Shown: positions 10,562-29,098, counted from the first letter of the stretch. The stretch is DNA of 32,592 bases from a virus (IMGVR_UViG_3300044833_000361:1-32592), one strand, 5' to 3'. Notes: generated by a model not told the origin, from the sequence alone. Numbers and translations are program-made.

Positions 10562-10791
10562 GATCCCAGCTGCGCGTTCATTTGAAGTCAACGCCCGACC
10601 TGGAGCGGATTGCGGCGGGGCCGCTATTGCCGGTTGACCGGGAGGCGGTGGACCGGGAGCTGGAACAGCGGCGGCGATCGGCGGGCGCGGACTCGAAAGA
10701 CCAAATCGGGTTGTTTGAAAAGGCGGGGAACGATCATGAGCAGGATCATGAGCATGATCATGAGCATGAGCAGGAGGGACAGACGACATGA
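10558..10791 (+). CDS. small protein with repeat-encoded His/Glu/Asp tail
   Basis: 77 residues. About 55 residues look ordinary (LRVHLKSTPDLERIAAGPLLPVDREAVDRELEQRR). The end, NDHEQDHEHDHEHEQEG, is encoded by the hexamer array at 10732-10776. It overlaps the terminase start by ATGA and the array supplies that gene's AGGAG. A small terminase subunit would fit the position, but no HTH is evident. Confidence 0.5.
   Translation: MRSQLRVHLKSTPDLERIAAGPLLPVDREAVDRELEQRRRSAGADSKDQIGLFEKAGNDHEQDHEHDHEHEQEGQTT
10732..10776 (+). repeat. GAKCAN hexamer array R1, before terminase
   Basis: Tandem hexamers GATCAT/GAGCAG/GATCAT/GAGCAT in frame with the upstream gene. They end in GAGCAGGAGGGAC, which provides the Shine-Dalgarno about 8 bases before the terminase ATG. 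Confidence 0.85.
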
Positions 10792-12728
10792 CGGGACTGG
10801 AACCGCATCCGCTTTTCACTTTGCCCACGAGGGAGCAGGCGCTGGCGATGGGGCCGGAGCGTTTCGAGGCGCTGATCAGCGAGCGCGCGAAGCGGATGGA
10901 GCTGGAGCGGGACGATCCGCTCAATAACGGCTATGAATCGCCGATCTGGCACCTGATCGATGACATGCTGTGCGAAGGAAAGCGCGTCTGCCTGATCGAA
11001 CACCCGGATATTCTGCCGGCGGACCTGCGCAAGACGGGGTCGCCGCAGCTCGAGTTGATCGGCCGGCGTGAGATCCTGCTCCATGGGGCCAATGGCGCTT
11101 CGAAAACCGAGTATGCCGGCAAGAAAGTCGTGAAAGTGCTGCGCAGCGGCGACGCGAAGCGGACCTGGTCCTTCCACGAGACGGGGCCGGCGTCGATCGC
11201 GCGGCAACAGCCGATCATTTACAAATATTTGCCGCTGCGGATCCGGAGAATCGTGGAAGCGACCGGGCGCTACAAGCGTGGCGTGGTGGCGAACGTGTCT
11301 TACTCGCAGAAAAACGGGTTTACCGAGGACACTTTCGTGCTGGATAACGCTTCCCAGCATTTCTTCAAGAATTACGCCCAGGAAGACAAGACGGTGGAGG
11401 GCGACCAGCTGGATGCGGCCTGGCTGGACGAGCTGGCGCCGCTCAACCTGGTGAAAACCGTCCGGTTCCGCCTGGTGCGGCGAAAAGGGCTGCTGATTGT
11501 CACGTTTACCCCGATCAAGGGCTGGACGACGACGGTGCAGGAGTATCGACAGGGAGCAAAGAAGGTGCTGGAGGTGGATGCCGAGCTTTTGCCGATCAAA
11601 GACGCAAACGGCAAGCCGACCGGGCACCTGGAGAAGGTGCCGCGGATCGAGGTGGCCGGCCCCGGGACGGAGGGGAGCCTGAAGGCGAACATCGTTTACC
11701 TGCACAGCTCGGATAACCCGTATTTCGACAAGACGGAGCTGTTCGAGCTGCTCCGGGGAGCGCGGCGTCAGCTGATCCTGGAGCGAGCGTATGGGGTGGC
11801 GACGAAAGCGTTTGCGAACCAGTTCGCGAAGTTCAGCGAGCTGGTGCACGTGGTGGAACCGGACCGGATCCCAAAGGAAGGGACGAATTTCCACATCGTG
11901 GACCCGGTGGCAGGTCGGAATTGGTTCATGCTTTGGATGAGGATCGATCCGAACCCGATCGTGCGTCCGGACGGGACGGAAGCTTATCGCCGGTGGATTT
12001 ACCGGGAATGGCCGTCGACGGATCACACGGGGCTATCGGCTTATATTCCGGGCATCGGCGATCCTGGAGCGTGGACGCTGCCGGGGAACTCGGCGGACGG
12101 GCAGCGCGGGCCGGCGCAGGATGCGTTTGGCTGGGGGTTGGACCGTTACAAAGTGGAAATTTTGCGGCTGGAAGGCCACAAGGCAATCGCGGCGGCGGAA
12201 GCGATGGGGCCGGAAAAAAAGCAGGCCGCGCCGGCGATGCTGCCGGGGGACCGGCCGGCGGTGCGGAAGAGCCCCTACCTGAATGCCGCGGCGGGGCCGG
12301 TGGTGACGAGCGGCGGGGAAGCGATCGCGGAGCGGCTGATGGATTCGCGCTACGGGGCGGCGCCGATGCAGGACAACGAGCGGACCACTACGCTGCTGGA
12401 GAAGATGCGCGACGAGCAGGGGATGGAATTCCTGCCGGCGAGCGGGAAAGATATCGGGGAAGGGGTGCAGATGATCAACGACGGGCTGGATTACGACGAC
12501 CAGGTGCCGCTGGGGGATTATTCTCCGAGCCTGGCCCGGATCAACGCGCCGCTGCTGTATATCTCGCGCGAATGCCCAAACCTGATTTACGCACTGCGGG
12601 AATGGACGGGGAAGGATGGGCTGCACGGGGCGAGCAAGGACCCGGTGGATTGCCTGCGGTATGGGTTTGAGGCGGACCTGGCATATATCGGAGAAGATGC
12701 GTTTGCTTGGAAGGGCGGGATGAGATGA
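10788..12728 (+). CDS. terL: terminase large subunit
   Basis: 646 residues, the usual size or slightly longer. ATPase domain: Walker A GANGASKT (100-107) and Walker B-like AAWLDE (about 209-214) with the catalytic acid, followed by LLIVTFTP (coupling motif-like). The nuclease domain likely begins at HIVDPVAGRNWFMLWMRID (about 369). The C-terminus has KDPVDCLRYGFEA, the acid-rich ending typical of terminase nucleases. It packages DNA into the prohead as a motor at the portal. A long polar insert lies at about 455-530. The start is coupled by ATGA and has an RBS from array R1. Confidence 0.9.
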   Translation: MTGLEPHPLFTLPTREQALAMGPERFEALISERAKRMELERDDPLNNGYESPIWHLIDDMLCEGKRVCLIEHPDILPADLRKTGSPQLELIGRREILLHGANGASKTEYAGKKVVKVLRSGDAKRTWSFHETGPASIARQQPIIYKYLPLRIRRIVEATGRYKRGVVANVSYSQKNGFTEDTFVLDNASQHFFKNYAQEDKTVEGDQLDAAWLDELAPLNLVKTVRFRLVRRKGLLIVTFTPIKGWTTTVQEYRQGAKKVLEVDAELLPIKDANGKPTGHLEKVPRIEVAGPGTEGSLKANIVYLHSSDNPYFDKTELFELLRGARRQLILERAYGVATKAFANQFAKFSELVHVVEPDRIPKEGTNFHIVDPVAGRNWFMLWMRIDPNPIVRPDGTEAYRRWIYREWPSTDHTGLSAYIPGIGDPGAWTLPGNSADGQRGPAQDAFGWGLDRYKVEILRLEGHKAIAAAEAMGPEKKQAAPAMLPGDRPAVRKSPYLNAAAGPVVTSGGEAIAERLMDSRYGAAPMQDNERTTTLLEKMRDEQGMEFLPASGKDIGEGVQMINDGLDYDDQVPLGDYSPSLARINAPLLYISRECPNLIYALREWTGKDGLHGASKDPVDCLRYGFEADLAYIGEDAFAWKGGMR

Positions 12729-12862
12729 TGAGCTCTGCGAATCCTCCTGCTCGTGCTCATGATCTTGCTCATGATCCACGTGCCTGCGTGAAGACAGGCC
12801 GGGAAATCGATCAGGAGCAGGATCAGGAGCAAGAGCATGAACGGAAAGGCCGAAGGGGATGA
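12725..12862 (+). CDS. coupled 45-residue ORF built from hexamer repeats
   Basis: The ATG overlaps the terminase stop (ATGA) and its own stop overlaps the next gene's ATG (ATGA). Product: MMSSANPPARAHDLAHDPRA, then a short Cys-containing link, then DQEQDQEQEHE. Nearly all is encoded by two inverted hexamer arrays. It is probably translated as a leader that hands ribosomes to 12859; a protein function is doubtful. Confidence 0.35.
   Translation: MMSSANPPARAHDLAHDPRACVKTGREIDQEQDQEQEHERKGRRG
12744..12839 (+). repeat. inverted hexamer arrays R2 forming a long hairpin
   Basis: Left arm 12751-12776 and right arm 12809-12834 pair at 22 of 26 positions. A second hairpin GCCTG/CAGGC (12782-12786 with 12795-12799) sits in the loop. 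The left arm has CTCATG/ATCTTG-type units, the right arm GATCAG/GAGCAG units. Confidence 0.8.
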
Positions 12863-13119
12863 GCGAGCCGGCGCAGGAATTTCTGCGGAGGGGGGAAGTG
12901 ATGGACTGGCTCACTTCGCCGGAGCTTGGTTTTAAGCGGGACGCGGTGAGGAGCATGATGGAGCTGGACATCATCAAAGGCGCGCCGCTGCCGGGATGGG
13001 TGAAGGCCACCGCGCCGGGAAAGAAGAAAAAGAGCGAGGGGAAAAACGGCCACACCGGCGCGAAGGGCGCGAGGAATTATCATCGGAAAAGCCAGATCAA
13101 GGCGGCACTAAATTTATGA
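12859..13119 (+). CDS. small basic DNA-binding-like protein
   Basis: 86 residues. The first half (EFLRRGEVMDWLTSPELGFKRDAVRSMMELDIIKGAPLPGW) reads like an excisionase or MerR-type helix-turn-helix. The second half is Lys/Gly-rich (PGKKKKSEGKNGH). It is coupled on both sides. It lies between terminase and portal, an unusual place for a regulator; it could help DNA packaging. Confidence 0.5.
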   Translation: MSEPAQEFLRRGEVMDWLTSPELGFKRDAVRSMMELDIIKGAPLPGWVKATAPGKKKKSEGKNGHTGAKGARNYHRKSQIKAALNL

Positions 13120-13319
13120 CATTACTGTGTTTGATAGGGTTGCACGATATTCGCTGCTCGCAGCGATACGTGCCAGAAAATCATTATGGGAAGATACTGG
13201 AAGAGGATCATTTCATAGCGAAGTGCGCACGATGCGGATGGGTAAAAGACGAAACACACAACCGATGGAACGGACATGACTTCGTGCCGATTCAGGAGTC
13301 TGAACCTAAGGACAGCTGA
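13116..13319 (+). CDS. small CxxC protein, DUF1660-like
   Basis: 67 residues, MTLLCLIGLHDIRCSQ, then AKCARCGW and WNGHDFVP. The N-terminal LLCLIGLHD, a CxxC-G and a closing HDF fit the small phage zinc-ribbon family DUF1660, though divergent. The ATG overlaps the previous stop (ATGA) and is preferred to the frame opening at 12996. Base composition is more AT-rich than its neighbours, hinting at acquisition. Confidence 0.6.
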   Translation: MTLLCLIGLHDIRCSQRYVPENHYGKILEEDHFIAKCARCGWVKDETHNRWNGHDFVPIQESEPKDS

Positions 13320-13379
13320 CTCGATGACGACAGAAAATAGAATTTAAACCAAACAACCAACCCTGGCACCTGACGAATT
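13320..13379 (+). promoter_or_regulatory. CA-rich leader without Shine-Dalgarno, before the portal gene
   Basis: The 60 bases before the portal ATG are A/C-rich (AAACCAAACAACCAACCC) with no AGGAG. A 7-codon frame at 13323-13346 (MTTENRI) resembles the portal start (MTTDKRL). Probably an unstructured leader. Confidence 0.4.
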
Positions 13380-15581
13380 ATGACTACTGACAAAAGATTG
13401 AAGGACGCGGAGTTTAACCTGGAAGTGGGGACGGACACGCCGAATGTGCGGCTGATCCTGCGCGAGCTGGAGGACGCGCAGCAGCCGGCGAGCGATTACC
13501 TGGCCCGCAACCTGAAGGCGCACAACTCGTGGCATTCGCGCTGGCCGGGGCAGTGCATCGACGGGCGGAAACATCCGCTGGCCGGGGAGGAAGTGTTCCC
13601 GTGGCCGGGCGCGAGCGATTCGCGGCTCCGGAGCGTGAAACAACAGATCCGCGACCACGTGATGGTGGGCAAGGCGGGGGTGCGCGGGTGCCGGATCCAG
13701 GCGCAATCGGTGCGGCCGCTTGCGCCGGGGCACTCGCGGTTTTCGAACCAGGTGACGAAACTGCTCCAATGGCAGACGGGCACGCAGCTCCGGAATGAGC
13801 TGCAACGGGAGATCCCGCTGGCGCTGAGCTGGCGTTTCGGCTACGGCGCGGCGGCGCTGAGCGTGGGCTGGTGGCAGTGCAGGCGTCTGGAATACCACGA
13901 GCTCACCATCCCGATCCTGGCGGATATCGTGTCGGCCCAGACCGGGCTGCAGCCGGGGGAAGCGCTCTTCCAGGTGCAGGAAGGGCTGTCGAACCCGGCG
14001 CAATTCGAGCAAATGGCGCAGTATCTCCAGACGCTCTCGCTGATCGTGACGAAACGGCAGGCGCGCAAGGCGGTGGAAGATTTGCAGCAGCTCCGCACGA
14101 CGAAGCTGCCGATTCCCTACACCTTTCAATCGCAGCCGCGGATCACGGCGCTGCGGCCGGGGGTGGACCTGCTCTTCCGCGATCTGACGGGGGATTTGCA
14201 GGCGGAACCGTGGATCGCGTGGAGGGAAATGGTGAGCGAGACGGACCTATACGATCTGATCGAGACGGATAATTACGATCCGCGGTTCGTAGAGGAAGCG
14301 GTGAGCCAGAAAGGGGAGCGGAACGACGATATCTGGCTGCTGCAAACGCTGGCGGAACGGGGCCTGTATGGCGATCATCTGGCGCGGCCGGCGTGGGTAA
14401 ACGCCTACCAGAATTCGATCGAGCTGATCCATTTCTGGTATAAGGCGCATGTCAAAGGGGTGCCGATCGTTTTCCGGACGATCCTGAACCCGCGGGTGCT
14501 GGGGAGGGACCTGAAAAACCCGCTTTATGCGAGCCACGGGCCGCATCCCTACGATCACGGGCAATATCCGCTCGTCGCGATGCGGCACGAGAAGGAGGAG
14601 CGCGGGATCCTGAGCAGCCAGGGGATCGCGGAGCTGGCTTACACGTGGGAGCAGGAAGAGAAGATCCAGGCGGACGGGCTGGCGGATCGCACGGCGATCG
14701 CGCACCGGCCGCCGTTGATCGTGCCATATTCGAAGGTGCACGCGATCCAGGGCTCGCCGCTGCCGGGGGCGGTGCTGGGGGTGACGAGGCCGCAGGAGAT
14801 CCAATGGATGCCGATCCCGCCGGGGGATGACACGCCGGTGCAGGTGCTGCAGGCGATCGCGCGGCGGGTGGAACGGTTCTTCCCGCTCTTCGGCGCGGAG
14901 CTGGACCCGGACCTGAAGAATATGTATCGGCAGGAGGTAGTGGACGGGCCGCTGCAGGAGATCGAGGCGGTGCTGGAAATGATGTTTCAGCTGGACCAGC
15001 AATATCTGCCGGAAGACGAGGTAGCGGACGTGGCAGGCGGGCTCCAGATGCCGTTCCACGTTTCGCGGAAAGAGATCCAGGGCGCGCATAATATCCGGGT
15101 GAAATTCGACGCGAAAACGATCGACGTTGAATATGTGAAGGAGAAGGTAGGGCTGATGGGGCTGCTGCTGCCGTTCAACCAGGGGGGCACGGCGAACATG
15201 AACGCGTTTTTCCGTTCGGCCATGGAGCTGGTAGATCCGGACATGGCGGACGATGTGATCGAGAACGACCAGGTGGCGACGGATCGGGAACGGCAGGATG
15301 AAAAGCAGGCGATCGCGCAAATGCTGGTGGGCCTGGAGCCCGATAAACCGGCGCAGGCGAATAACCAGCTCCGGCTGCAGGTGATCCAGGAAGCGCTGGC
15401 GATGCCCGGGATGAAAGAGAAAGTGACGGGGAACGAGGTGACCCAGGCGCTGTTCAAGAACCGGATCGCGTTTTTCATGAACCAGATCCAGCAATACCAG
15501 AAGAACCCGCAGATCGGGCGGGAAGTCAGCACGAAGACGTTTAGTAACGATGCGCCGTCGATGACGCAGTTGCCGGGATAG
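13380..15581 (+). CDS. portal protein
   Basis: 733 residues, close to P22-type portal size. It follows the terminase module and precedes scaffold and capsid, the usual order. Seen features: GEEVFPWPGASDSRLRSVKQQIRD near the start, a long helical middle, DVEYVKEKVGLMGLLLPFNQGG in the region usual for the portal stem, and a C-terminal Gln-rich helix (FFMNQIQQYQKN). It would form the dodecameric ring through which DNA is packaged and ejected. Identification rests on size, position and overall pattern rather than a single catalytic motif. Confidence 0.8.
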   Translation: MTTDKRLKDAEFNLEVGTDTPNVRLILRELEDAQQPASDYLARNLKAHNSWHSRWPGQCIDGRKHPLAGEEVFPWPGASDSRLRSVKQQIRDHVMVGKAGVRGCRIQAQSVRPLAPGHSRFSNQVTKLLQWQTGTQLRNELQREIPLALSWRFGYGAAALSVGWWQCRRLEYHELTIPILADIVSAQTGLQPGEALFQVQEGLSNPAQFEQMAQYLQTLSLIVTKRQARKAVEDLQQLRTTKLPIPYTFQSQPRITALRPGVDLLFRDLTGDLQAEPWIAWREMVSETDLYDLIETDNYDPRFVEEAVSQKGERNDDIWLLQTLAERGLYGDHLARPAWVNAYQNSIELIHFWYKAHVKGVPIVFRTILNPRVLGRDLKNPLYASHGPHPYDHGQYPLVAMRHEKEERGILSSQGIAELAYTWEQEEKIQADGLADRTAIAHRPPLIVPYSKVHAIQGSPLPGAVLGVTRPQEIQWMPIPPGDDTPVQVLQAIARRVERFFPLFGAELDPDLKNMYRQEVVDGPLQEIEAVLEMMFQLDQQYLPEDEVADVAGGLQMPFHVSRKEIQGAHNIRVKFDAKTIDVEYVKEKVGLMGLLLPFNQGGTANMNAFFRSAMELVDPDMADDVIENDQVATDRERQDEKQAIAQMLVGLEPDKPAQANNQLRLQVIQEALAMPGMKEKVTGNEVTQALFKNRIAFFMNQIQQYQKNPQIGREVSTKTFSNDAPSMTQLPG

Positions 15582-15592
15582 GGGGAATTCTC

Positions 15593-15621
15593 ACACGAAG
15601 GAACACGGAGGAACACGAAGC
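15593..15621 (+). repeat. ACACGAAGGA 10-base tandem array before 15622
   Basis: Three units (ACACGAAGGA, ACACGGAGGA, ACACGAAGC) end directly at the ATG at 15622 and provide GGAGG. Related 9-base units occur at 16039-16065 (opposite orientation) and 28396-28422. Confidence 0.8.
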
Positions 15622-16032: not shown

Positions 16033-16038
16033 TTTAGG

Positions 16039-16999: not shown

Positions 17000-17290
17000 G
17001 CGGGATTTCAGTGAGCTGAGGGAGAGGGAGAGGGAGAGGGAGAGCGGGGACGATCAGGAGCAGGATCAGGAGCAGGAGTTGTTGATGGGAGGGAGCTGAT
17101 GAGGGGTTATTTCTGCGGTTTAGGGCGGTCTTCTGCGGTTTAGTGCGGTGTTGGGGGGCGAGTGGCTTGCCCCGCGCGAAAACGGGGAGCACAACGGCCT
17201 CCGTAATGAGGCGCTTCTTTACTTCGACCTATCGGCCGAGCCCGGCGGGCACGGCAACTGAAGTAATGCACACCACTTGGAGGGATATCC
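17000..17290 (+). promoter_or_regulatory. longest gene-poor stretch: repeats and a structured leader before the scaffold gene
   Basis: It holds GAGAGG-type hexamers (about 17018-17045) and GAKCAN array R3 (17052-17078). A 20-base tandem pair TTCTGCGGTTTAG(G/T)GCGGT follows at 17111-17130 and 17131-17150. Then come two small hairpins: CCCCG/CGGGG around a GAAAA-containing loop near 17169-17187, and GCCTC/GAGGC near 17200-17214. GGAGGGA precedes the scaffold ATG. A 32-codon frame from the ATG near 17206 overlaps the scaffold start but has no RBS. This is a likely regulatory leader for the head genes; no clear sigma-70 promoter is seen. Confidence 0.45.
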
Positions 17291-18538: not shown

Positions 18539-18614
18539 ACGCGGACGCAATTAACCAAGCAGGTGGCAAACGGCCCTCGTGGCCGTGGCTGCAACAACCA
18601 AGGAGGATAAATTT

Positions 18615-19723: not shown

Positions 19724-20212
19724 ATGCGCAGACTAACACCGCTCCTCCTGGAGGAGCAGCAAGGCAGTAACGGCGGGTTTACCCACGGTGCCGTTCTTGA
19801 CGCGGACGACCTCACGATGGCGACCAACAACACCGTGCAGGATATCACGATCGGCACGGTGCCCAAAGGCTGGATCATCAACAAGACGTTGATCCGGCTG
19901 GTTAACCCGTTCCAAAACACGGGGGACGCCGCATTCAATACCACGACTCTCATCCTGGGAGACGCGGGATCGAGCAACCGCTACATGGCCTCCGCGGAGC
20001 TAAACCTGAACGGGACGGAGATTACCTATCCCAAGGTGAACCTGACCGCTTACCAGGTGACGGCGGACACGGCGATCGTGGCGGAGTTCGGCAGCATGTC
20101 GGGCAAGAACCTGAACACGCTGAACAAGGGGGAAGTTCATATCTTCCTGCAGCTGATCGATACCACGACGCTGAGCCAGCTATCCGCGGCCCAGCCGATC
20201 CTGATCAAATAA
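19724..20212 (+). CDS. head decoration or minor capsid-like protein
   Basis: 162 residues, beta-rich and polar (TNNTVQDITIGTVPKGWIINKTLIRLVNPFQNTGDAAFNTTTLILGD; KNLNTLNKGEVHIFLQLIDT). Such proteins commonly follow the major capsid gene and decorate the head or form a small fibre. A GAAAGGA lies before the ATG. No signal peptide, unlike the next gene. Family not named. Confidence 0.55.
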   Translation: MRRLTPLLLEEQQGSNGGFTHGAVLDADDLTMATNNTVQDITIGTVPKGWIINKTLIRLVNPFQNTGDAAFNTTTLILGDAGSSNRYMASAELNLNGTEITYPKVNLTAYQVTADTAIVAEFGSMSGKNLNTLNKGEVHIFLQLIDTTTLSQLSAAQPILIK

Positions 20213-20308: not shown

Positions 20309-20335
20309 GATCAGGAGCAGGATCAAGATCATGAG
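20309..20335 (+). repeat. GAKCAN hexamer array R4
   Basis: GATCAGGAGCAGGATCAAG then ATC runs straight into the ATG at 20331, supplying AGGAG about 14 bases upstream. Confidence 0.8.
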
Positions 20336-20969
20336 TAAGAAATTTTCTTTAATTATCGCGCTGGCATTAACGGCGCTGGCGATGCCGGCGCGGGCGGATA
20401 CGAGCGGGGTTTATTCGAAAAAGGGAGTAGGGACGTTTGTCGGCGGCACGGCGAGCGACAAAGTGGGATTCCATGGCGTGGCTGGGGTGCAAAACCCGGC
20501 TACGGATACGGCGTTCAAATCCATGCAGGACCATGGCGGCATCGCGGCGGGCGCGGATTACTCCGTGCAACACAAAACGATCACGCTGAGCGCGGCGCAA
20601 ATCATCGCGATGTATACCACGCCGGTGCAGCTGATCGCGGCGCCCGGCGCGGGGAAATCGATCGTGGTGGCAAAGGCGGCTTTTACCATCGTGCGAACGA
20701 GCACGGCGTTTACCGGCGGCGCGGCCGCGATCGTGCAATACGACAGCACGGCGAACGGCGGCGGGACTCAGGCCCTGGATTCGACGCTGGCTTCCACGGT
20801 GATCACGGGCGCGGCGGGAACGACGGTGAGCTTGCGCAATGGCGCGATCATCAGCGACCTGGCCAGCACGTCGATCCAGAACAAGGGGCTGTTCATCTCG
20901 AACGGCACCGCGGTCTTCGCCGCCGGCACCGGCACGGCCACGGTGGACGTCTGGTATTACGTTTACTGA
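20331..20969 (+). CDS. exported phage structural-type protein with signal peptide
   Basis: 212 residues. The first 23 form a textbook Sec signal (MSKKFSLIIALALTALAMPARA, cleavage after ARA). The rest is a beta-rich domain common next to phage capsid genes (KTITLSAAQIIAMYTTPVQLIAAPGAGKSIVVAKAAF ... ATVDVWYYV). A secretion signal on a virion-type protein is unusual: it may be exported before lysis, or the virion protein may have captured a host leader. RBS from array R4. Confidence 0.65.
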   Translation: MSKKFSLIIALALTALAMPARADTSGVYSKKGVGTFVGGTASDKVGFHGVAGVQNPATDTAFKSMQDHGGIAAGADYSVQHKTITLSAAQIIAMYTTPVQLIAAPGAGKSIVVAKAAFTIVRTSTAFTGGAAAIVQYDSTANGGGTQALDSTLASTVITGAAGTTVSLRNGAIISDLASTSIQNKGLFISNGTAVFAAGTGTATVDVWYYVY

Positions 20970-20974: not shown

Positions 20975-21067
20975 TCTCCTGCTCCTGACCATGATCCTAC
21001 TCCTGATCCTCCGGGAAAAGGTGGAAAGCATTCGAGCACGAGCACGATCATGAGCATGAGCACGATC
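20975..21067 (+). repeat. inverted hexamer arrays R5
   Basis: Left arm 20975-21012 (CTCCTG/ATCCTA-type) and right arm 21034-21067 (GAGCAC/GATCAT/GAGCAT) are imperfectly complementary around a purine spacer. The right arm contains the start codons at 21050 and 21056. Confidence 0.75.
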
Positions 21068-21643
21068 GTCGAAGATGTAGCCATTTTGCCCGAGCGGGTG
21101 AAGCGGGAGCTGATCCGCGGGGAAAATGCGCGGGCGGAGTTTGCCATCCGGGCGCAGAACGCGCTGCAGGAGGCGATGATCGAGATGGGGCCGGTGCGGC
21201 ACGTGGAGGGGATCGGGCGGAAGGTGGCCACGATCCACCCGGAGATGGCGGCGCGCATCCGGGTGCAGTATGGGGTGCGTTCGCTGCACGATCCGGATTT
21301 TCTCCGGTGTCTGCTGAAAGAAAACCCGTTCCTGCGGGTGCAGACGGTGCCGGCGCGGCTGACGGTGCGGGTGGATGGCTTGCGGGCGGATTCCAGACGC
21401 CCGGAGGAGAAGGGTAATCCGCAGATTTCGCAGATTACGCAGATGGGGCAAGGGGGAGGAAATGGTGCGCAGGGAGATCCTGCGTCGCCGCGCGGTTTGA
21501 GGAACCGCAGGGGATCGCCCGAGACAGCTTTCCCTCGATCCGGCCATGAAACACCCTCCCGGCCACATCTGCGGCAATCTGCGAAATCTGCGGATGGATT
21601 AGGAGCAAGATCAGGAGCAGGAGCAAGAGGGGGAAGGGAATGA
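21050..21643 (+). CDS. hypothetical virion-region protein, C-terminus replaced by an inserted element
   Basis: 197 residues; start 21050 or 21056. The first 110 or so residues (IVEDVAILPERVKRELIRGENARAEFAIRAQNALQEAMIEMGPVRHVEGIGRKVATIHPEMAARIRVQYG) look like a genuine helical phage protein, perhaps a head-completion component. From about residue 122 the sequence (NPQISQITQM ... LRQSAKSADG ... GAGARGG) comes from a repeat-bounded element and a hexamer array. It couples to 21640 by ATGA. The ancestral gene was probably shorter. Confidence 0.6.
   Translation: MSMSTIVEDVAILPERVKRELIRGENARAEFAIRAQNALQEAMIEMGPVRHVEGIGRKVATIHPEMAARIRVQYGVRSLHDPDFLRCLLKENPFLRVQTVPARLTVRVDGLRADSRRPEEKGNPQISQITQMGQGGGNGAQGDPASPRGLRNRRGSPETAFPRSGHETPSRPHLRQSAKSADGLGARSGAGARGGRE
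21419..21593 (+). mobile_element. 175-bp inverted-repeat element, MITE/REP-like
   Basis: Ends are near-perfect inverted repeats of three 9-base units: 21419-21445 (CCGCAGATT-TCGCAGATT-ACGCAGATG) and 21566-21593 read backwards. Inside are two perfect 6-bp hairpins, CGCAGG/CCTGCG (21468-21484) and GCGGTT/AACCGC (21492-21508). It lies in frame in the C-terminus of the gene at 21050. No transposase is nearby. Confidence 0.65.
21601..21629 (+). repeat. GAKCAN hexamer array R6
   Basis: Hexamers with GATCAGGAGCAGGAGC, immediately after the inverted-repeat element and before the ATG at 21640. GGGAAGGGAA adds further purines near the start. Confidence 0.8.
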
Positions 21644-22359
21644 GGGCGGTCAACTTCAGGGATACGGTGCTTTACGGGGTGGCGTATTTCATGGGTTACG
21701 ATCCGAAGAAGGATCTGCTCACGCCGCAGCTGGAGAGCTGGACGAATTTCATCAACCGCTGGGTGTTGAAGCTGTGGGACCAGGCGGATTTCCCGGAGTG
21801 GACGGTGATCGAGCGCCGCATTCCGGATGTGAACCATGAAATCAGCTTCGACCAGACCAGCCAGACGCCGATCGGGAAGCTGCTGAAGGTTTACCTGCGC
21901 GATCCGCGCACGAACCGCGGACCGCTCGAGACGCCGTTCCGGCTCTCGGCGGAAGGGGTGCACGTGGGCTACGAGCACGGCACGTATGTGTGGCTGAAGT
22001 TTTCGATTCGCGCCCCGCAATTCAGCTCGACGCCGTGGAACAGCGGGACGGCCTATGCGGTGGGTGACCTGGCTTACGGGACGGCGAAGGGTGAAACCTA
22101 CCGCGCGATCCAGGCCGCGACGAACCATGCGGTGACGGACGCGGCGTATTGGGCGCTGGTCCCGTTCCCGTTCCAGCTGGCGGAGCCGGTGATCCTGGGC
22201 GCGTATGCCGATGCGCTGCGCGATGAAGGCCAGACGGACAAGGGCGGCGCGGAAGAGCAACTGGCGGGCGCGGCGGTGAACCAGCGGGCCGGAGCGATGG
22301 CCACGAGCGAGCACGATGTTTTGAGCGATCAGGTGGCGACCGGCGGGAGGTATCGATGA
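21640..22359 (+). CDS. head-tail adaptor-like protein, paralogue 1
   Basis: 239 residues. It shares layout and motifs with 22472: MRAVNFRDTVLYGVAYFMG at the start, YVWLKFSIRAPQFSSTPWNSGTAYAVGDLAYG in the middle, a small binding-type beta domain, and GAYADALRDEGQTDKGGAEEQLAGAAVNQRAGAMA at the end. The mid-domain resembles carbohydrate-binding modules (W-x-TAYAVGDLA...YRAIQAATNHA). Its place between head and tail genes suggests a connector or tail-completion role. It is coupled by ATGA to the gene before. Confidence 0.55.
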   Translation: MRAVNFRDTVLYGVAYFMGYDPKKDLLTPQLESWTNFINRWVLKLWDQADFPEWTVIERRIPDVNHEISFDQTSQTPIGKLLKVYLRDPRTNRGPLETPFRLSAEGVHVGYEHGTYVWLKFSIRAPQFSSTPWNSGTAYAVGDLAYGTAKGETYRAIQAATNHAVTDAAYWALVPFPFQLAEPVILGAYADALRDEGQTDKGGAEEQLAGAAVNQRAGAMATSEHDVLSDQVATGGRYR

Positions 22360-22377
22360 TCTTCTCCGCGAAGCGTT

Positions 22378-22458
22378 CTGCTCATGATCCTGATCCTGCT
22401 CCTGATCGATTCGGGGGAGGAAGAGAGATCATGAGCATGATCAGGAGCAGGAGCATGA
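22378..22458 (+). repeat. inverted hexamer arrays R7 forming a hairpin
   Basis: Left arm 22378-22408 (CTCATG/ATCCTG units) pairs with right arm 22427-22458 (GATCAT/GAGCAT/GATCAG units) at about 23 of 27 positions, with a purine-rich loop. The right arm contains a mini-ORF leading to the next gene. Confidence 0.8.
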
Positions 22459-22475
22459 GGGGGAGAGGGAAGTGA
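22431..22475 (+). CDS. 14-residue coupled mini-ORF in array R7
   Basis: ATG at 22431 to TGA at 22473-22475, peptide MSMIRSRSMRGRGK. Its stop overlaps the GTG start of the next gene (GTGA). Probably a leader peptide; a protein role is unlikely. Confidence 0.35.
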   Translation: MSMIRSRSMRGRGK

Positions 22476-23422
22476 GGACCGTCACTTTCAAATCCGTGAG
22501 GGATGGAGTGTTGCGCCGGCTGGGGAAAGACCCGGACGCGGAGACGACCACGCAGGACGCGGTCCGCGCGGTGACGGAGCATATCCAGACCCGGCTGAAT
22601 ACGGCGTGGAATTTCTGGCCGTGGAAAGAATTGATGGTGACGGAGCAGCGTGCGTTCCGGCCGCTCTGGTTTGTGGACCGGGCCACGCCGGCGGGCACGG
22701 AAATCTATTACCAGCCGCTGGGATATTTCAAAGCGATCCTGGACGCGCCGGCGGCCACGGTGCCGACGAACGGGACTTACTTCGTGGCGATCCCGACGCC
22801 TTACTTTGGGAATATCCCCTTCGAGCAGACCGGCCAGCGCACGATCGGCCAGGTGTTCGCGGCTTTTAATGGCGACCCAGACATAAGTAATCCATACATA
22901 TCCCGGCAGCTCGATTTCGAGCAGACGGAAAACGGGATTGCCGTGGGATATGCCGGCACAAGCACGGCCTGGATCACCTACCGGCTGCCGCCGCCGCAAT
23001 TCACCAGCGTCCCGCACGCGGCGGGCAAAATTTATCGCGAAGGCGACGTGGTGTTCGATCCGGATCCGGCACACCAGGGGTTTGGCGAATGTTATGTGGC
23101 CCTGGTCGACGACCCGGAGAACAGCGCGGCCTCGCCCCGCTGGGAAAAGCAGATGTTCCCGGAAATGTTCGCCGATTACGTGAAGCTGGGCGCTTACTCG
23201 GATGCGCTGGGCGAGCTGGATAACGATCGCGCGGCCGATAAAGAGCAAACGGTGATGGCGGTGGCAAACCGCGCCGCCAGCCAGGCCGAAGAGATGCTGG
23301 CGAGCCTCTGCAACCGCCAGATCGAGCAGGGGCAGCGGGCCAGCTACCGGCTCTTCCAGCGCCGCGCGTGGCCCGCCTCGGAAATCTCGTGGCCGGGAGT
23401 GCTCCTCAATTCCATCGCATGA
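22472..23422 (+). CDS. head-tail adaptor-like protein, paralogue 2
   Basis: 316 residues from GTG at 22472 (MRTVTFKSVRDGVLRRLG). It is a diverged paralogue of 21640: the start motif, the PPQFTSVPHAAGKIYREGDVVF domain and the closing LGAYSDALGELDNDRAADKEQTVMAVANRAASQAEEM all correspond. It has an extra N-terminal part (NTAWNFWPWKELMVTEQRAF) typical of phage tail-completion or gateway proteins. Tandem duplication is likely. It ends in ATGA with the spike gene. Confidence 0.55.
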   Translation: MRTVTFKSVRDGVLRRLGKDPDAETTTQDAVRAVTEHIQTRLNTAWNFWPWKELMVTEQRAFRPLWFVDRATPAGTEIYYQPLGYFKAILDAPAATVPTNGTYFVAIPTPYFGNIPFEQTGQRTIGQVFAAFNGDPDISNPYISRQLDFEQTENGIAVGYAGTSTAWITYRLPPPQFTSVPHAAGKIYREGDVVFDPDPAHQGFGECYVALVDDPENSAASPRWEKQMFPEMFADYVKLGAYSDALGELDNDRAADKEQTVMAVANRAASQAEEMLASLCNRQIEQGQRASYRLFQRRAWPASEISWPGVLLNSIA

Positions 23423-24546
23423 ACGGCCTGGCCCTTACCCCGCAATTTTACGATCGCTTCGGCGTGGCCGAAGGGGACCGCGCTCCATCGATCATTAACC
23501 CGGCAAACTACGATACCATCCCGGACGCCCTGGCGGCGGTGACTTCTTCCGCCGGGGAAATTGTGTTCGGCGCCGGAACCTTTGTTTTGGACTTGCAGGC
23601 CATTTCCGAGCTGGACGGGTTAGTAATCCGCGGCGCGGGCGTCGGGCGCACGATCATCAAACGGGGGGCCACGCTGGCCTCCGCGATGTTTAACCTGAAC
23701 GGGCTGAACCAGACGATCCGCGACCTGACGATCGACGGGAACGGCCTGCTGAACACGGCCGGCAATCAGTGTGAGTTGTCGCTCTTTGGCGATGGCCCGG
23801 GGACGCTAGTGCAAAACGTCGAAATCAGAAACGTCCGGAGCCGTGGGATCGACGTTTATAAGTCCGCGCGCATTCTCGATTGCATCGTCACCGGGCTGAG
23901 CAACGCCTCGATCCCCAGCATGGGGATCTGGATGGACGCGCCCAGTGTCCTGGATGTGAAGATCCGTGGCTGCCTTATTTCCGGGCACGGGATCAACGGC
24001 ATTTACGCCGGCGGCCGGAAGATCCGGATTATCGGCAACACGATCCGGAGTAACCACTGGCAGACCACGCCCACCGGCGGCGGCCAGATCGATTTGCAAT
24101 CCGATAACGCCGCCGTCGCGGACATCATCATTAGCGCGAACGACATTTCAGATGGGGGCGGCCTAGTGACGTGCGGGATCGAGATCGATGGCGGAAACGC
24201 GGTCATCTCCGGGAACCTCATTTCTGGAAATAAAGGGGGCGGGATCCTAGTCCAATCAACGGCGGTGCGCCCCTTAATCACTGGGAACGAGATTAAAAAC
24301 AACGGCAACGGCGGCACCGAACCAGGGATTAGCGTCCCCGCGGGCGGGTCTTACTTCCAGATCGTGGGGAACCACGTTTACGACGACCAGGTTACCAAGA
24401 CGCAAATGTATGGCATCAGCGTGCCAGTGGGGGCCAGCGATCATTACGTGATCGCAAACAATCTGTGCCACGGGAACGGCACCTCTCAGCTCTCCGATTT
24501 AGGGACTGGGTCGAACAAATCTGTCGCGAACAATGTGACAACCTAA
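23419..24546 (+). CDS. right-handed beta-helix tailspike-like protein
   Basis: 375 residues from the ATG at 23419 (ATGA overlap), preferred to 23368. Repeated coils with N-rich turns are visible: LVIRGAGVGRTIIKRG, IRDLTIDGNGLLN, VEIRNVRSRGIDVYKSARILDCIVTG, IRIIGNTIRSN, IIISANDISDGGG, AVISGNLISGNKGGGILV, ITGNEIKNNGNGG, FQIVGNHVYDDQ. This is the pectate-lyase-like parallel beta-helix pattern of phage spikes that bind or cut surface glycans. The helix ends in KSVANNVTT without a long C-terminal trimerisation domain. Confidence 0.8.
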   Translation: MNGLALTPQFYDRFGVAEGDRAPSIINPANYDTIPDALAAVTSSAGEIVFGAGTFVLDLQAISELDGLVIRGAGVGRTIIKRGATLASAMFNLNGLNQTIRDLTIDGNGLLNTAGNQCELSLFGDGPGTLVQNVEIRNVRSRGIDVYKSARILDCIVTGLSNASIPSMGIWMDAPSVLDVKIRGCLISGHGINGIYAGGRKIRIIGNTIRSNHWQTTPTGGGQIDLQSDNAAVADIIISANDISDGGGLVTCGIEIDGGNAVISGNLISGNKGGGILVQSTAVRPLITGNEIKNNGNGGTEPGISVPAGGSYFQIVGNHVYDDQVTKTQMYGISVPVGASDHYVIANNLCHGNGTSQLSDLGTGSNKSVANNVTT

Positions 24547-24548
24547 CT

Positions 24549-25283
24549 ATGAAGAAATACCTAACGACTGCAAGGAAAGTGACCAGTGACCAGTGGCCAG
24601 TGATAAGAGTAATCTGCCTGGCTGCTATCTTCTGTCTTCTGACCCCTGTTCACGTTTTCGCCGATAACATCAATATCATCGATCACCAGCTTAAGACGAG
24701 CAAGCCGCTGCCGGTCAATGTGGTAAGCGCGGCGGCGGTGGCTGGTGCATCTACCGCGGCCAAACAGGACACCGGCAATACATCGCTGGCGTCGATTGAC
24801 TCGAAAACTCCGACTTTAGTCGGCGGCCGCCAGCCAGTGGATGGATCGGGAGTTACCCAACCCGTGAGTGCCGCGGCGTTACCGTTGCCCACTGGAGCCG
24901 CCACTTCGGCTCTCCAGCCCGCTTTAGTTAGTGGCCGAACGCCAGTGGATGGATCGGGAGTTACCCAGCCCGTGAGTGCCGCGGCGTTACCGTTGCCCAC
25001 TGGAGCCGCTAAGGCGGTCGGCACCCCGAACTACGCAAATGGACAGGTGACACTCTCCACTGCCGCCGGAACAGTGAAGGCATCGAACGCGACGCGCCGG
25101 TCCATTTCAATCACCAATCTGGATCCAGGGATCACTGTTTATATCGGCGGCGCCACAGTCACCAGCGCGAATGGAGAACGGCTCTTGCCCGGGCAGTCGA
25201 AAGTAATTAACGCGGTCGGACTTATCCAGGGGATCGCGGTATCCGGCACTCCAATTGTCTCTTACTGGGAGGAATATGATTAA
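24549..25283 (+). CDS. exported tail-fibre-like protein with internal repeat
   Basis: 244 residues from ATG 24549, two bases after the upstream stop. A signal peptide is likely (IRVICLAAIFCLLTPVHVFA, cleavage about residue 38), preceded by an n-region encoded by a heptamer tandem repeat (VTSDQWPV). The mature part has the phage-tail phrase GASTAAKQDTGNTSLASID and two copies of a 36-residue unit PVDGSGVTQPVSAAALPLPTGAA, then a beta domain (SISITNLDPGITVYIGGATVTSANGERLLPGQS). Fibre or decoration role inferred from these phrases. Confidence 0.6.
   Translation: MKKYLTTARKVTSDQWPVIRVICLAAIFCLLTPVHVFADNINIIDHQLKTSKPLPVNVVSAAAVAGASTAAKQDTGNTSLASIDSKTPTLVGGRQPVDGSGVTQPVSAAALPLPTGAATSALQPALVSGRTPVDGSGVTQPVSAAALPLPTGAAKAVGTPNYANGQVTLSTAAGTVKASNATRRSISITNLDPGITVYIGGATVTSANGERLLPGQSKVINAVGLIQGIAVSGTPIVSYWEEYD
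24583..24603 (+). repeat. heptamer tandem repeat CCAGTGA x3
   Basis: CCAGTGA, CCAGTGG, CCAGTGA in tandem within the signal-peptide coding region of 24549. Similar heptamer repeats are, from memory, common between genes of some bacteria such as cyanobacteria. Confidence 0.8.
24834..25009 (+). repeat. 68-bp direct repeat, period 108
   Basis: 24834-24901 and 24942-25009 are identical but for one base. Flanks of each copy are partly diverged, so a 36-residue unit was duplicated, with recent conversion of its centre. Confidence 0.9.
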
Positions 25284-25857
25284 CAGATTTTTGCTGTCGT
25301 TAGGTATCGTTTTAACGCTCTTCGCTCCTGCATTAGCGGTGGGTCCCACGATACCAGGAGAAGTGCTTATTGCGAATAAGAAGACCGTGGCGCTCACCGG
25401 TAACTCCGTGGTTATTAGTGTTCCGGCTGGTTACACTAATTTGCGCGTGGTGTTGACCGGCAGATCAGATGCTGTTGTAGCCGCCCAGGGGGTGCTTATT
25501 ACTTTTAACGCGATCGCCACCGGATATGACTACGATTTTATCGAGACCTCCGGCTCGAGCACGCCGACCTCAAATCTTACAACAGGCGCAACGGGCATTG
25601 GCGGGAGCGCTGTGCCTGGAACCACGGCTACAACGAATTACCCTGGCACGATTCAAATATTCGTGCCGAATTACTCGGGAACCACGTTTGCCAAGGGATT
25701 GTTGGCAAAGTGCGGGTTTTTAAATGGATCAACCACGGTGATCCGTGAGATCACCGGCACTTGCTCAAGCACGGCGGCAATCACTTCGATTAGTTTCACG
25801 CTTAACGGCGGCGGAAATTTTGTTTCTGGCAGCAGCGCCACCTTGATCGCGGAATGA
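25276..25857 (+). CDS. exported beta-rich protein
   Basis: 193 residues from ATG 25276, after GGGAGGA and overlapping the upstream stop by 8 bases; preferred to 25255. Signal peptide MINRFLLSLGIVLTLFAPALA, cleavage near residue 21. The body is Thr/Gly/Ser-rich beta (KKTVALTGNSVVISVPAGYTNLRVVLTGRSDA; GYDYDFIETSGSSTPTS; SISFTLNGGGNFVSGSSATLIAE), like phage tail or decoration domains. With 20331 and 24549 it forms a set of secretion-signal proteins in the virion region. Function unknown. Confidence 0.6.
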   Translation: MINRFLLSLGIVLTLFAPALAVGPTIPGEVLIANKKTVALTGNSVVISVPAGYTNLRVVLTGRSDAVVAAQGVLITFNAIATGYDYDFIETSGSSTPTSNLTTGATGIGGSAVPGTTATTNYPGTIQIFVPNYSGTTFAKGLLAKCGFLNGSTTVIREITGTCSSTAAITSISFTLNGGGNFVSGSSATLIAE

Positions 25858-26369
25858 CCGTGATGGAAATACTACGCCAATTTCCCGCCATCTGGGCCAC
25901 GCTCGGGCTGCTTGTCGGCGGCGGCGTGATGTTTTGGGTAACGAAGAAATTTGGCCCGATGCGGAACGACGCATTAAATGAGGTAATCGGGGCCTACAAG
26001 GAGCAGGTGAAGGCGCAGATAGCTCTATCGGCCACTCAGGCGGAACAGAACATGGCTACCCTCACGATGCAGAAGGACCATTGGGCCGAGGAACTGGCAA
26101 AGATGGAGAAGGAGCGAAACAATTACCGGAACGATCTGCACGCGGAGAGAGAGATTCATAACGCGGCCAAGCTAAAGGTGCAGGAACTGGAAATGCGGCC
26201 TTCGCTCGAGCTGGTGCAAACCGAGCAGCAATCCTTCTATCGGGACATGACTAACACTCTAAAAGGGATCGCGGAGTCGATGAAACTGCACGACGACAAA
26301 TCGCAGGAACGTTTCGAGGAATTGATCATGAGCCTTCGAAAACCATCCTCGAAAAGGAAGGTGGCATGA
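25854..26369 (+). CDS. membrane-anchored coiled-coil protein, spanin-like candidate
   Basis: 171 residues; start 25854 (ATGA) or 25863. One membrane segment at about 10-30 (FPAIWATLGLLVGGGVMFWVT) is followed by a long charged coiled coil (about 40-120: EQVKAQIALSATQAEQNMATLTMQKDHWAEELAKMEKERNNYRNDL). This topology fits an inner-membrane spanin (Rz type), with a lipoprotein at 26696 as possible partner. It could also be a tail-associated membrane protein. It lies at the start of a lysis-like block and is coupled to 26366. Confidence 0.55.
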   Translation: MTVMEILRQFPAIWATLGLLVGGGVMFWVTKKFGPMRNDALNEVIGAYKEQVKAQIALSATQAEQNMATLTMQKDHWAEELAKMEKERNNYRNDLHAEREIHNAAKLKVQELEMRPSLELVQTEQQSFYRDMTNTLKGIAESMKLHDDKSQERFEELIMSLRKPSSKRKVA

Positions 26370-26689
26370 TCCTACTCGCTCTCACCGCCCAGGAATTTGG
26401 CACTAACGGCCGGGATTGGGTCGAAGCGATCAGCGGCGTGCTGGATGTGACGATCGCGAAGGTGGGCGTGCTGGGTCTCGCCATCATCGCGGTTTACCAG
26501 AATTTGAAATCGCGGGCGGAAATCAAGGAGCGGCTCGACCGGCAGGGAGAACGTATTGACCAGGTCGCGCTGGCCACCCCGCCCGCGGGCTCACTGACAG
26601 GGAAGCCCGCGGCTGAAAACATCTCGGCTGAAGCACAGCCAACAACTGCGACTTCGCACAGCGAAGTGGCTACAGAAGAAAGAACCTAA
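26366..26689 (+). CDS. small membrane protein, holin-like candidate
   Basis: 107 residues. One clear membrane segment (VTIAKVGVLGLAIIAVYQNL, about 28-47), then a charged helix (KSRAEIKERLDRQGERID) and a disordered polar tail. It is coupled by ATGA to the spanin-like gene. Size, single hydrophobic helix and place near an endopeptidase gene fit a holin or pinholin, without proof. Confidence 0.5.
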   Translation: MILLALTAQEFGTNGRDWVEAISGVLDVTIAKVGVLGLAIIAVYQNLKSRAEIKERLDRQGERIDQVALATPPAGSLTGKPAAENISAEAQPTTATSHSEVATEERT

Positions 26690-26695
26690 CGACCA

Positions 26696-27100
26696 ATGAA
26701 AATATACATAGCTCTTGCAATCATCTGCCTTCTCTCATTCCCGGCTTGTAGCACGACCAGGAACACGGATGGCACGTCAACTACTTCGTTCGACGCGAAC
26801 AGCCCGGCGGCCCAGGCGGCAATCTCGGCGGCGACACAGATCGCCGTGAGCGCGGCTAACTCCGCCATCCAGAATTACCTGGGGCCGCAGAACAATAGTC
26901 ATGCGCGACACGCAAAAGTGTCTCTCGCGGATCATCCCAAGCTCGCAGCCGCGGAACAGGCCGCGGAGAAATCTATTTCACGGGCGCAGCCGAAGCTCCC
27001 GAAAGCGACCGTGCACAAGATAACGGTGAAAGCATTTCAGGCGCGATTGCTGGAAGAAAACACCGCGTCCTTCCGGGACCCAGCGGAGTCAACGCCGTAA
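26696..27100 (+). CDS. lipoprotein, possible outer spanin
   Basis: 134 residues. Signal MKIYIALAIICLLSFPAC with Cys18 in a lipobox-like FPAC. The mature part is Ser/Ala/Asn-rich (SPAAQAAISAATQIAVSAANSAIQNYLG), then basic. It could be the Rz1-type partner of 25854. A CA-rich stretch (CTAACGACCA) precedes the ATG instead of a Shine-Dalgarno. Confidence 0.55.
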   Translation: MKIYIALAIICLLSFPACSTTRNTDGTSTTSFDANSPAAQAAISAATQIAVSAANSAIQNYLGPQNNSHARHAKVSLADHPKLAAAEQAAEKSISRAQPKLPKATVHKITVKAFQARLLEENTASFRDPAESTP

Positions 27101-27114
27101 CTGAAAGCAAGGCC

Positions 27115-27846
27115 ATGCCAAAACACATTCTAGCCGCCGCGTTCAACCAGGGCGGGCAGTTCCCGACGATCGGCGTCGTCAATCTCGCGACTGTCCCGCT
27201 GGGTTGCGATTTCAATGCGCTGGTCGCGGCGCTCCAAAAGTTCCTCGACCAATTCTTCGTTCCGATCTGGGGTTATCCGGCAAAGCTCGTCATCTATCCC
27301 GACGTGAAATCCATCCCGGCCGATCAATGGCAATTCCTGTTCATCGACAATGCGGACACTGCCGGCGCGCTGGGCTACCATGACCTGACGAAAAATGGGC
27401 AGCCGGTCTCGAAGATTTTCGTCAAGACGACCATCGCCGATAAGCAGCTCGTCAGCGTAACGGCCTGCCACGAGCTGGCGGAGATGATGATCGACCCGGG
27501 CGCTCAACTTTGGGCGCAGAAACCGGACGGCAGCTTCGTCGCCTACGAAATGTCGGACCCGGTGGAGGAGCAGACGTTCGACATCGACGGGATCACGATG
27601 AGCAACTTCGTTTTGCCGTCCTACTTCGAATCGTGGAAGCATCCGAAGGGAACCAAGTTCGATTATCTCGGGAAGCTGACAAAACCTTACCAGATCGCGA
27701 AGGGCGGCTACCTGATCGTGGCGCAGGGCGGGAAAGTCACGGAAGTATTCGGCTCGGCCTCGAAGGCGAGACGGTTCGCCGGCGAGAATCGCGTGGGCCA
27801 TCGCAGCGAGCATCGGAAACCGGACGGTGAAAGGATCCAATCGTGA
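27115..27846 (+). CDS. HExxE zincin-like metallopeptidase homologue
   Basis: 243 residues. The core is VTACHELAEMMIDP (His119, Glu120, Glu123, Asp127), then VAYEMSDPVEEQTFDIDGITMSNFVLPSYFE. This HExxE...DP arrangement with a later EMSDPVE and SNFVLPSYF matches a family of phage-linked zincins as I recall it. The usual third ligand may be Asp or Glu rather than His. No signal peptide. It lies among lysis genes, so it may process virion or host surface protein. The basic C-tail (HRSEHRKPDGERIQS) may be disordered. Confidence 0.65.
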   Translation: MPKHILAAAFNQGGQFPTIGVVNLATVPLGCDFNALVAALQKFLDQFFVPIWGYPAKLVIYPDVKSIPADQWQFLFIDNADTAGALGYHDLTKNGQPVSKIFVKTTIADKQLVSVTACHELAEMMIDPGAQLWAQKPDGSFVAYEMSDPVEEQTFDIDGITMSNFVLPSYFESWKHPKGTKFDYLGKLTKPYQIAKGGYLIVAQGGKVTEVFGSASKARRFAGENRVGHRSEHRKPDGERIQS

Positions 27847-28262
27847 AGCCCCTTCACAAAACGGTAACGATCTTGTTTACGATCGCGGCAGCAGCGCTCC
27901 TGATCTTTGTCGGCTCTTACCATGTCCAGTTCGATTGGGCATGGCGTGAGATCGCGGGCATCGATCTACCCGTTGCCGTCATTCTCGGATGGTTCGAACT
28001 GCTCACCGGGATCTTGTTCGTTCTCCTGGCTGTATGGCTGATTGCCGGCTGGCGCATGGGATTGAAAGCGGCTGGGATGATGATCGCGCTGGCGCTGTCT
28101 GCCTGTGGCGATTCTTCTTCAGAGGAAGCCGATTGTTACATCGGCTGCGGGCATCCCCAAAGGAACCTGAGCCAGACGGGCGTGGACGATGCGGGCATAG
28201 CGCTCCCGACCCGCGTTGAGTATGCGAAGGAACACAATTTACCGCCGCCGCGAGACCAATGA
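27843..28262 (+). CDS. holin-like membrane protein with embedded lipoprotein start
   Basis: 139 residues. Two membrane segments (about 9-27, ILFTIAAAALLIFVGSYHV; about 42-70, LPVAVILGWFELLTGILFVLLAVWLIAGW) are followed by a second signal-like stretch MGLKAAGMMIALALSAC. That stretch starts at Met72 (ATG 28056) and ends in a lipobox LSAC (Cys88). Translation from the inner ATG would give a small lipoprotein with CYIGCG. So one frame may give a holin-lipoprotein fusion or two products. It is coupled at both ends by ATGA. Confidence 0.55.
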   Translation: MKPLHKTVTILFTIAAAALLIFVGSYHVQFDWAWREIAGIDLPVAVILGWFELLTGILFVLLAVWLIAGWRMGLKAAGMMIALALSACGDSSSEEADCYIGCGHPQRNLSQTGVDDAGIALPTRVEYAKEHNLPPPRDQ

Positions 28263-28441
28263 TCCGCGCTATCCTCATCGTCATTGGCTGTCTGCTGCTG
28301 CAATCGTGCGATCCGCTGCGCGCCGGTCCGTTCTCGGAACATCTGTGCACGAATTGCGACGATAACGATGCCAGGCAACTGGCGAAGAGTCCTCACACGA
28401 AGGTCACAAAGGTCGCAACGGTAAGCGGGAGGAACCGATGA
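28259..28441 (+). CDS. small lipoprotein
   Basis: 60 residues. Signal MIRAILIVIGCLLLQSC with lipobox LQSC (Cys17), then CTNC. The last residues (HTKVTKVATV) are encoded by the 9-base array at 28396-28422. It is coupled to both neighbours by ATGA. It may be a spanin-like or superinfection-exclusion lipoprotein; the sequence does not decide. Confidence 0.5.
   Translation: MIRAILIVIGCLLLQSCDPLRAGPFSEHLCTNCDDNDARQLAKSPHTKVTKVATVSGRNR
28396..28422 (+). repeat. 9-base tandem array CACGAAGGT-CACAAAGGT-CGCAACGGT
   Basis: Three units end 15 bases before the endolysin ATG, with GGGAGG following. The same type runs the other way at 16039-16065. Confidence 0.8.
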
Positions 28442-29040
28442 GCAAAATTTCTGATATTCAGGCGATCCTGGGGGTAACGGCAGATGGCGCATGGGGACCG
28501 AAATCGCAGGCGGCGCTCGACGCGGCAAAGGGAGAGGGGGCGGCTGACACAGCCGCCGCTACAGGGGCGGCGCCGGGAGCGACGGAGGACGGAGGCCTGG
28601 TCGATCCGCGGAGTGAGATCGCCATTGCCACTTTGCACCGCAAGGTGCAGCCGATCGCGCGCAAGCTGGTGAAGCTCGCGGCCGCGAATGGAATCGTGAT
28701 CAAGATCACCTCCGGCACGCGGACTTATGCGGAGCAGGACAAGCTCTTCGCGCAAGGGGGCGTGACCCATGCGCGGGGTGGGCAATCGAACCATAATTTC
28801 GGCCTGGCTTTCGACCAGACGATTTTCGACGGGCCGCAACCGGTGTGGGAATCACCGCTTTATAAAAAGGTGGGCGCGCTGGGAGAAAGCGTGGGGTTGA
28901 GCTGGGGCGGCCGCTGGACCTCCATCGTGGACGAGCCTCACTTCGAACTTCGCCCTCCCTGGGCCGCGAGCATGAGCGAAGGGCAGATGCTGGCCGAGCT
29001 GCGGCGTCGGCACGATAACGGAATCGACGCATTTGCATAA
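28438..29040 (+). CDS. endolysin, M15-family peptidoglycan endopeptidase
   Basis: 200 residues. N-terminal short peptidoglycan-binding-like motif (ISDIQAILGVTADGAWGPKSQAALDA, about 5-29), then an Ala/Gly linker. The M15 domain has SGTRTYAEQDKLFAQG (92-107), SNHNFGLAFD (117-126, zinc ligands His119 and Asp126) and DEPHFEL (165-171, zinc ligand His168). It would cut L-Ala-D-Glu or D-Ala bonds in the cell wall at lysis. No signal peptide, so a holin is needed for release; holin-like genes lie just upstream. RBS GGGAGG. Confidence 0.9.
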   Translation: MSKISDIQAILGVTADGAWGPKSQAALDAAKGEGAADTAAATGAAPGATEDGGLVDPRSEIAIATLHRKVQPIARKLVKLAAANGIVIKITSGTRTYAEQDKLFAQGGVTHARGGQSNHNFGLAFDQTIFDGPQPVWESPLYKKVGALGESVGLSWGGRWTSIVDEPHFELRPPWAASMSEGQMLAELRRRHDNGIDAFA

Positions 29041-29044
29041 GACT

Positions 29045-29098
29045 ATGAGCGATCACGAGCACGATCACGAGCAGGAGCAGGAGGGGGAAACGGAATGA
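29045..29098 (+). CDS. 17-residue coupled mini-ORF made of hexamers (array R8)
   Basis: MSDHEHDHEQEQEGETE, starting 4 bases after the endolysin stop. Its stop overlaps the next ATG (ATGA, 29095-29098). Encoded by array R8 (29051-29084), which also gives AGGAGCAGGAGGGGG before 29095. Probably a translation-coupling leader. Confidence 0.4.
   Translation: MSDHEHDHEQEQEGETE
29051..29084 (+). repeat. GAKCAN hexamer array R8
   Basis: GATCAC/GAGCAC/GATCAC/GAGCAG/GAGCAG units directly before the gene at 29095; no left arm. Confidence 0.85.

Follow-up and report, generated by a model that had tools for sequence, protein, structure and literature searches.

GAKCAN hexamer arrays beside the late genes of a viral contig probably belong to a REP-like hairpin family of Verrucomicrobiota

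The REP/BIME elements, which carry GTAG or CGTC tags, are short dispersed palindromes that are mostly intergenic and lie near or overlap gene ends; mRNA stabilisation and transcription termination have been proposed as their roles, and they have been reported from Verrucomicrobia, among which Opitutus terrae is described as particularly rich in GTAG repeats (PMC3733652). The hexamer arrays described here resemble them in being short dispersed inverted repeats, mostly intergenic and near gene ends, but where REP/BIME elements are palindromes of 20-40 bp, the GAKCAN arms are ~30 bp long and made of degenerate hexamers in which the sixth base is free. Nor do the arrays carry at their ends the GTAG or CGTC tag that accompanies the short REP palindrome; their edges read GCANGA. 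A second comparison is offered by the inverted pairs of DNA-uptake sequences in Neisseria and Haemophilus, which form hairpins after genes and are tied to uptake; these share with the GAKCAN family a short repeated motif, its inversion and a hairpin just past stop codons, but have one motif per arm instead of several units. The STRR sequences of cyanobacteria are likewise intergenic arrays of a short degenerate unit, yet they run head-to-tail, whereas the GAKCAN arms form inverted pairs with a fixed polarity. Intrinsic terminators consist of a GC-rich hairpin followed by a U-run, and no U-run was seen in the inspected outer flanks of the GAKCAN arms.

The arrays were encountered in the viral contig IMGVR_UViG_3300044833_000361 (32.6 kb; the whole stretch analysed, 32,592 nt, is referred to below as the window), which encodes an SU10-like major capsid protein, a DnaB-like helicase, a ParB-like protein and a large terminase (start at 10788; a weak match to an annotated terminase), and in which the late phage genes all lie on the + strand and run in one direction. 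The eight + strand arrays of the original prediction are all present, each with four to seven strict units. Runs of at least four GAKCAN units number 10 in the window, against a mean of 0.0 and a maximum of 0 in 200 dinucleotide shuffles, and a reversed control pattern gave 0 matches. The arrays and the arms that face them are the following:

10732..10773, + strand: R1, single 7-unit right arm within the C-terminal end of ORF 10558-10791; its edge, 14 nt upstream of the terminase start at 10788, reads AGGAGGG
12747..12776, - strand: left arm of R2, 18 nt past the terminase stop
12809..12838, + strand: R2, 5 units, right arm of the hairpin 12747-12838
17052..17075, + strand: R3, single right arm of 4 units; the next called gene (17291) is ~215 nt away
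20309..20332, + strand: R4, single right arm of 4 units, overlapping the start codon at 20331
~20976..21010, - strand: imperfect left arm of R5, ~7 nt past the stop of 20331-20969
21034..21063, + strand: R5, right arm of 5 units, with candidate starts at 21050 and 21056 inside it
21597..21626, + strand: R6, single right arm consisting of GATTAG and four strict units (21603-21626), at the end of ORF 21050-21643 and upstream of the start at 21640
22378..22407, - strand: left arm of R7, 18 nt past the stop of 21640-22359
22427..22456, + strand: R7, right arm (5 units) of the hairpin 22378-22456; the GTG at 22472 lies 15 nt downstream
29051..29080, + strand: R8, single right arm of 5 units, 14 nt upstream of the ATG at 29095; edge AGGAGGGGG

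The arrays had been described as always having the same orientation, which the three minus-strand arms (one of them imperfect) contradict: these arms face R2, R7 and R5 and create three inverted repeats, each just past the preceding stop codon. We therefore distinguish complete elements (R2, R5 and R7, all between tandem genes) from lone right arms (R1, R3, R4, R6 and R8). A partner arm is absent at 5 of the 8 phage loci, whereas in the bacterial genomes sampled 10 of the 67 long arms lack one. Since the right arm is always on the downstream side and transcription runs one way, every right arm appears on the + strand near a start. That the arrays lie just before genes is true of R1, R2, R6, R7 and R8, which end 14, 20, 13, 15 and 14 nt upstream of a start, respectively, while R4 and R5 overlap start codons and R3 is too distant to qualify; moreover, R1 and R6 sit inside the end of the preceding ORF and not in gaps. 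The predicted absence of arrays from the first 10.7 kb holds for runs of at least three units (there is one two-unit run at 3129). This 'late only' pattern follows from the scarcity of gaps in the early region, as the first ~10.3-10.7 kb has just one called gap of 50 nt or longer and the remainder 11.

Several other features of the window were noted. A tRNA-Met (CAT) at 1737-1808 lies within the called ORF 1361-1948, degenerate decamer arrays (CACCAGCGGA, CCAGCGGAGA, ACATAACAGG) at 4165-4359 lie within ORF 3712-4866, and 33 copies of an in-frame 12-bp repeat at 9322-9719, within ORF 9080-10339, encode a D/A-S-V-x ladder (DSVRDSVWDSVGASV...). After R3, at 17111-17149, there are two copies of a TTCTGCGGTTTAGGGCGGTC-like 20-mer; a ATTCTGCGGTT stretch also follows an array in Opitutia MAG 287ce (L144 ~401-411). 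Beside R6 a second inverted pair of short-unit arrays (21420-21444 and 21567-21594) is built from the nonamer CGCAGATTN, a doublet of which occurs in 36 of the 286 genomes of the bacterial class considered below, with facing pairs in G140 and G224. The genes 21640-22359 and 22472-23422 are likely paralogues, both matching one phage ORF in genome G168, and each is preceded by an array plus GAGGGGGA.

An invading repeat family at start sites had been put forward as an alternative from the outset, and it finds support for the most part: candidate host genomes were to be searched for intergenic arrays, and in some Verrucomicrobiota genomes a hairpin family is indeed dispersed between the genes. 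Its members have an NTGMTC left arm, a loop of 5-42 nt and a GAKCAN right arm, usually with five hexamers per arm. All 56 distinct paired bacterial elements have the order left arm-loop-right arm and no other, and the mode is 5 units per arm. The paired pattern gave 28, 30, 14 and 12 matches in G226, G330, G348 and G269, respectively (counts that include overlapping registers), and the reversed pattern gave 0. At least one four-unit match was found in 24 of the 286 genomes of the class that holds G001 and G226, with some counts far above the reversed control, and the inverted-pair pattern in 10 of the 97 genomes of the G226 order. Array-bearing genomes include Opitutia MAG 287ce (G001) and other Verrucomicrobia MAGs; MAG AV89 (G003) is of the same family as G330. 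Loose scans for five GAKCAN units returned, among the matches listed, mostly apparent coding low complexity, and the element searches then required mixed units or inverted pairs.

Only 3 of 52 bacterial array elements were located inside called genes. Among the 44 intergenic paired elements, 28 occupy tandem gaps, 9 convergent and 7 divergent ones; by simple arithmetic this distribution is not significantly different from that of the gaps measuring 90 nt or more in two sets of sampled contigs (175 tandem, 49 convergent and 89 divergent). With genes called by a simple codon-usage caller, so that start positions are approximate, the median distance from the element edge was 13 nt to a stop versus 67 nt to a start (Mann-Whitney p = 0.001), and a paired comparison of the two distances in tandem gaps gave p = 0.026 (Wilcoxon). 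Elements typically have a stop codon no more than ~15 nt away. In its position the bacterial family is a hairpin that keeps close to stops, the opposite of what a ribosome-binding module would show.

The free N base of the hexamer is genome-specific, C being almost absent in G330 and dominant in G269. At N and K, partner arms match no better than strangers within a genome in the outer-aligned register, and an N excess between arms appeared in G226 in shifted registers only. This absence of covariation between the arms implies that the stem depends chiefly on the fixed GAKCA blocks, and it provides no evidence of selection for pairing as such. An apparent excess of matches between the arms of one element over shuffled partners was discarded, as a within-genome control removed the signal, which was mainly a between-genome dialect effect. 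In one orthologous convergent gap a hexamer hairpin is present in G330, G269, G226 and G293, each with its own N bases, and in G350 the same gap contains a long hairpin without hexamers (L493 ~2140-2302). A hairpin that appears to be kept while its sequence turns over, seen at this one site, fits a structural role.

The phage arrays share the details of this family. The third bases of the units follow the order TGTTG in 12 of the 19 five-unit arms of G330, and TGTTG and TGTGG are the commonest orders in G226; in the phage, R2, its left arm, R6, R7 and R8 read TGTGG and the left arm of R7 reads TGTTG. Arm units, polarity and a loop of 5-42 nt agree in R2, R5 and R7. The order T-G-T-(T/G)-G and the GA at the outer edge recur as well, except for the unit order of R5 and R1, which departs from this scheme; all 8 phage right arms have GA after their last unit, as do at least 77 of the 80 bacterial arms. 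The left arms of R2, R5 and R7 are stop-proximal (18, ~7 and 18 nt), as in the bacteria. What the phage does not share is a complete pair at each site, given its five lone right arms, but bacterial arms, though usually paired (57 of 67), are not always so either. Together, the agreement in length and polarity of the arms, in loop size, in unit order and in the edge makes chance convergence unlikely. We consider it probable (about 0.62) that the phage arrays are copies, or single halves, of a REP-like family of intergenic hairpins of Verrucomicrobiota that the phage has taken up. Array density in the window is ~10x that of the sampled G330 and G226 stretches, so the actual host may be a different genome in which arrays are more abundant.

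A search of related phages had been proposed as well. No GAKCAN array of at least three units was found in 1.01 Mb around homologous terminases (80 viral contigs, ~35% identity). Terminase relatives were also found in two genomes of the G226 order. G168, which belongs to the same order as the array-rich genome G226, contains a phage or prophage that matches nine window proteins in syntenic arrangement (among them the helicase, the terminase, the 13380-15581 protein and the capsid), and neither its 40 kb (searched for arrays of at least three units) nor the G168 genome contains arrays. The absence of arrays from the terminase relatives and the G168 phage indicates that they are not ancestral in the phage group. 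A search for the capsid among viral contigs gave no locus. The only other viral match to the paired pattern, L487, is a palindromic GATCAT run, identical to its reverse complement, and not this element, and several of the arrays in L258-L266 look coding (leucine-rich or acidic). The viral contig L262 (30.5 kb, 59% GC) has GAKCAN arrays at 419-448 and 8894-8917, one of them shortly upstream of a possible start, and is perhaps a second phage with lone arms.

If the phage arrays derive from the bacterial hairpins, the complete elements would form REP-like intercistronic RNA hairpins past stop codons, which might shield the upstream mRNA at its 3' end or damp read-through. Predicted folding was strong for R2 (-50.7 kcal/mol, z -6.9) and R7 (-39.2 kcal/mol, z -3.8) and weak for R5 (-27.3 kcal/mol, z -2.0); the lone arms R1 (z -1.65) and R3, R6 and R8 (z about 0.8) have no significant structure of their own, and the strong fold near R4 is due to a separate, ordinary, array-free hairpin upstream of it, 3' of the gene 19724-20212. 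In the bacteria, 7 of the 44 elements lie in divergent gaps, where a role at 3' ends is not expected. The lone arms would mostly be passengers, of which the purine-rich outer edge (GCAGGAG) may serve as, or fuse with, the Shine-Dalgarno (SD) sequence of the downstream gene. Such arms could be remnants, could have been carried along when genes were duplicated (compare the likely paralogues downstream of R6 and R7) or could have been retained as leaders.

The same family might have no function at all and be a neutral, REP-like or MITE-like mobile repeat that was transferred from the host and has accumulated between phage genes. Its occurrence in all gap types, the fast turnover of the N base with arms that do not covary within genomes, and its absence from related phages are in line with this, but the strict polarity of the arms, their proximity to stops and the hairpin kept at one orthologous site across species suggest constraint, and no link to a transposase was found, Y1_Tnp (RAYT-type) being present, in a comparison of genome-level presence, in array-bearing and array-free genomes alike. 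On balance we regard neutrality as rather unlikely. A more far-reaching and still less likely proposal is that the arrays represent a new class of element with every sixth base free, co-opted from the host between virion genes, perhaps with the GAKCA ladder being read by a host RNA- or DNA-binding factor, and with the half-elements turned into leaders of late cistrons.

In the original prediction the arrays served as ribosome-binding modules of late genes only, placing an AGGAG-type site or a coupling mini-ORF and thereby setting the translation of virion genes. The array edge is itself the likely SD at R1 and R8 (GCAGGAGGG), AGGA at a usable spacing makes the edge a plausible SD at R4, and at R6 and R7 the array borders immediately on a purine-rich SD; the AGGAG-type sites do not extend to R5, which has no SD, or to R3, which has no adjacent gene. 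Strong SD pairing at R1, R6, R7 and R8 (about -11 kcal/mol), where the arrays end 13-15 nt upstream of the starts, speaks for such a role, as does the larger share of lone arms in the phage than in the bacterial sample; given this excess, lone arms near starts may have a separate role. Nevertheless, the SD of array genes does not differ in predicted strength from that of other genes (median -10.75 kcal/mol for 8 array genes versus -8.5 for 27 others, p = 0.37, computed against an assumed 16S tail), and a fixed position relative to starts across the family was not observed. R7 and R8 each have a tiny ORF with a stop overlapping the following start codon, and the two differ in frame; the ORFs that reach into the start at R1 and R6 are the tails of larger ones. 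As the bacterial copies are found at stops and the related G168 phage does without arrays, we consider this function improbable as a general rule. Independent slippage of a hexamer microsatellite within the phage would account for the tandem structure and the seven units of R1, but is hardly credible given the fixed TGT(T/G)G order, five-unit arms, inverted pairs and GA edge that match the bacterial family.

We found no published description of the GAKCAN hairpin family, only general papers on REP elements, in a search that covered few subscription journals, for which reason this absence is weak evidence of novelty. The family nonetheless appears undescribed, and it has an odd build of fixed GAKCA blocks, a free sixth base and a fixed unit order that is shared by some genomes of a poorly studied phylum and a phage. 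If it proves lineage-specific, it would offer a way to link uncultured phages to their hosts and a natural test of the function of stop-proximal hairpins.
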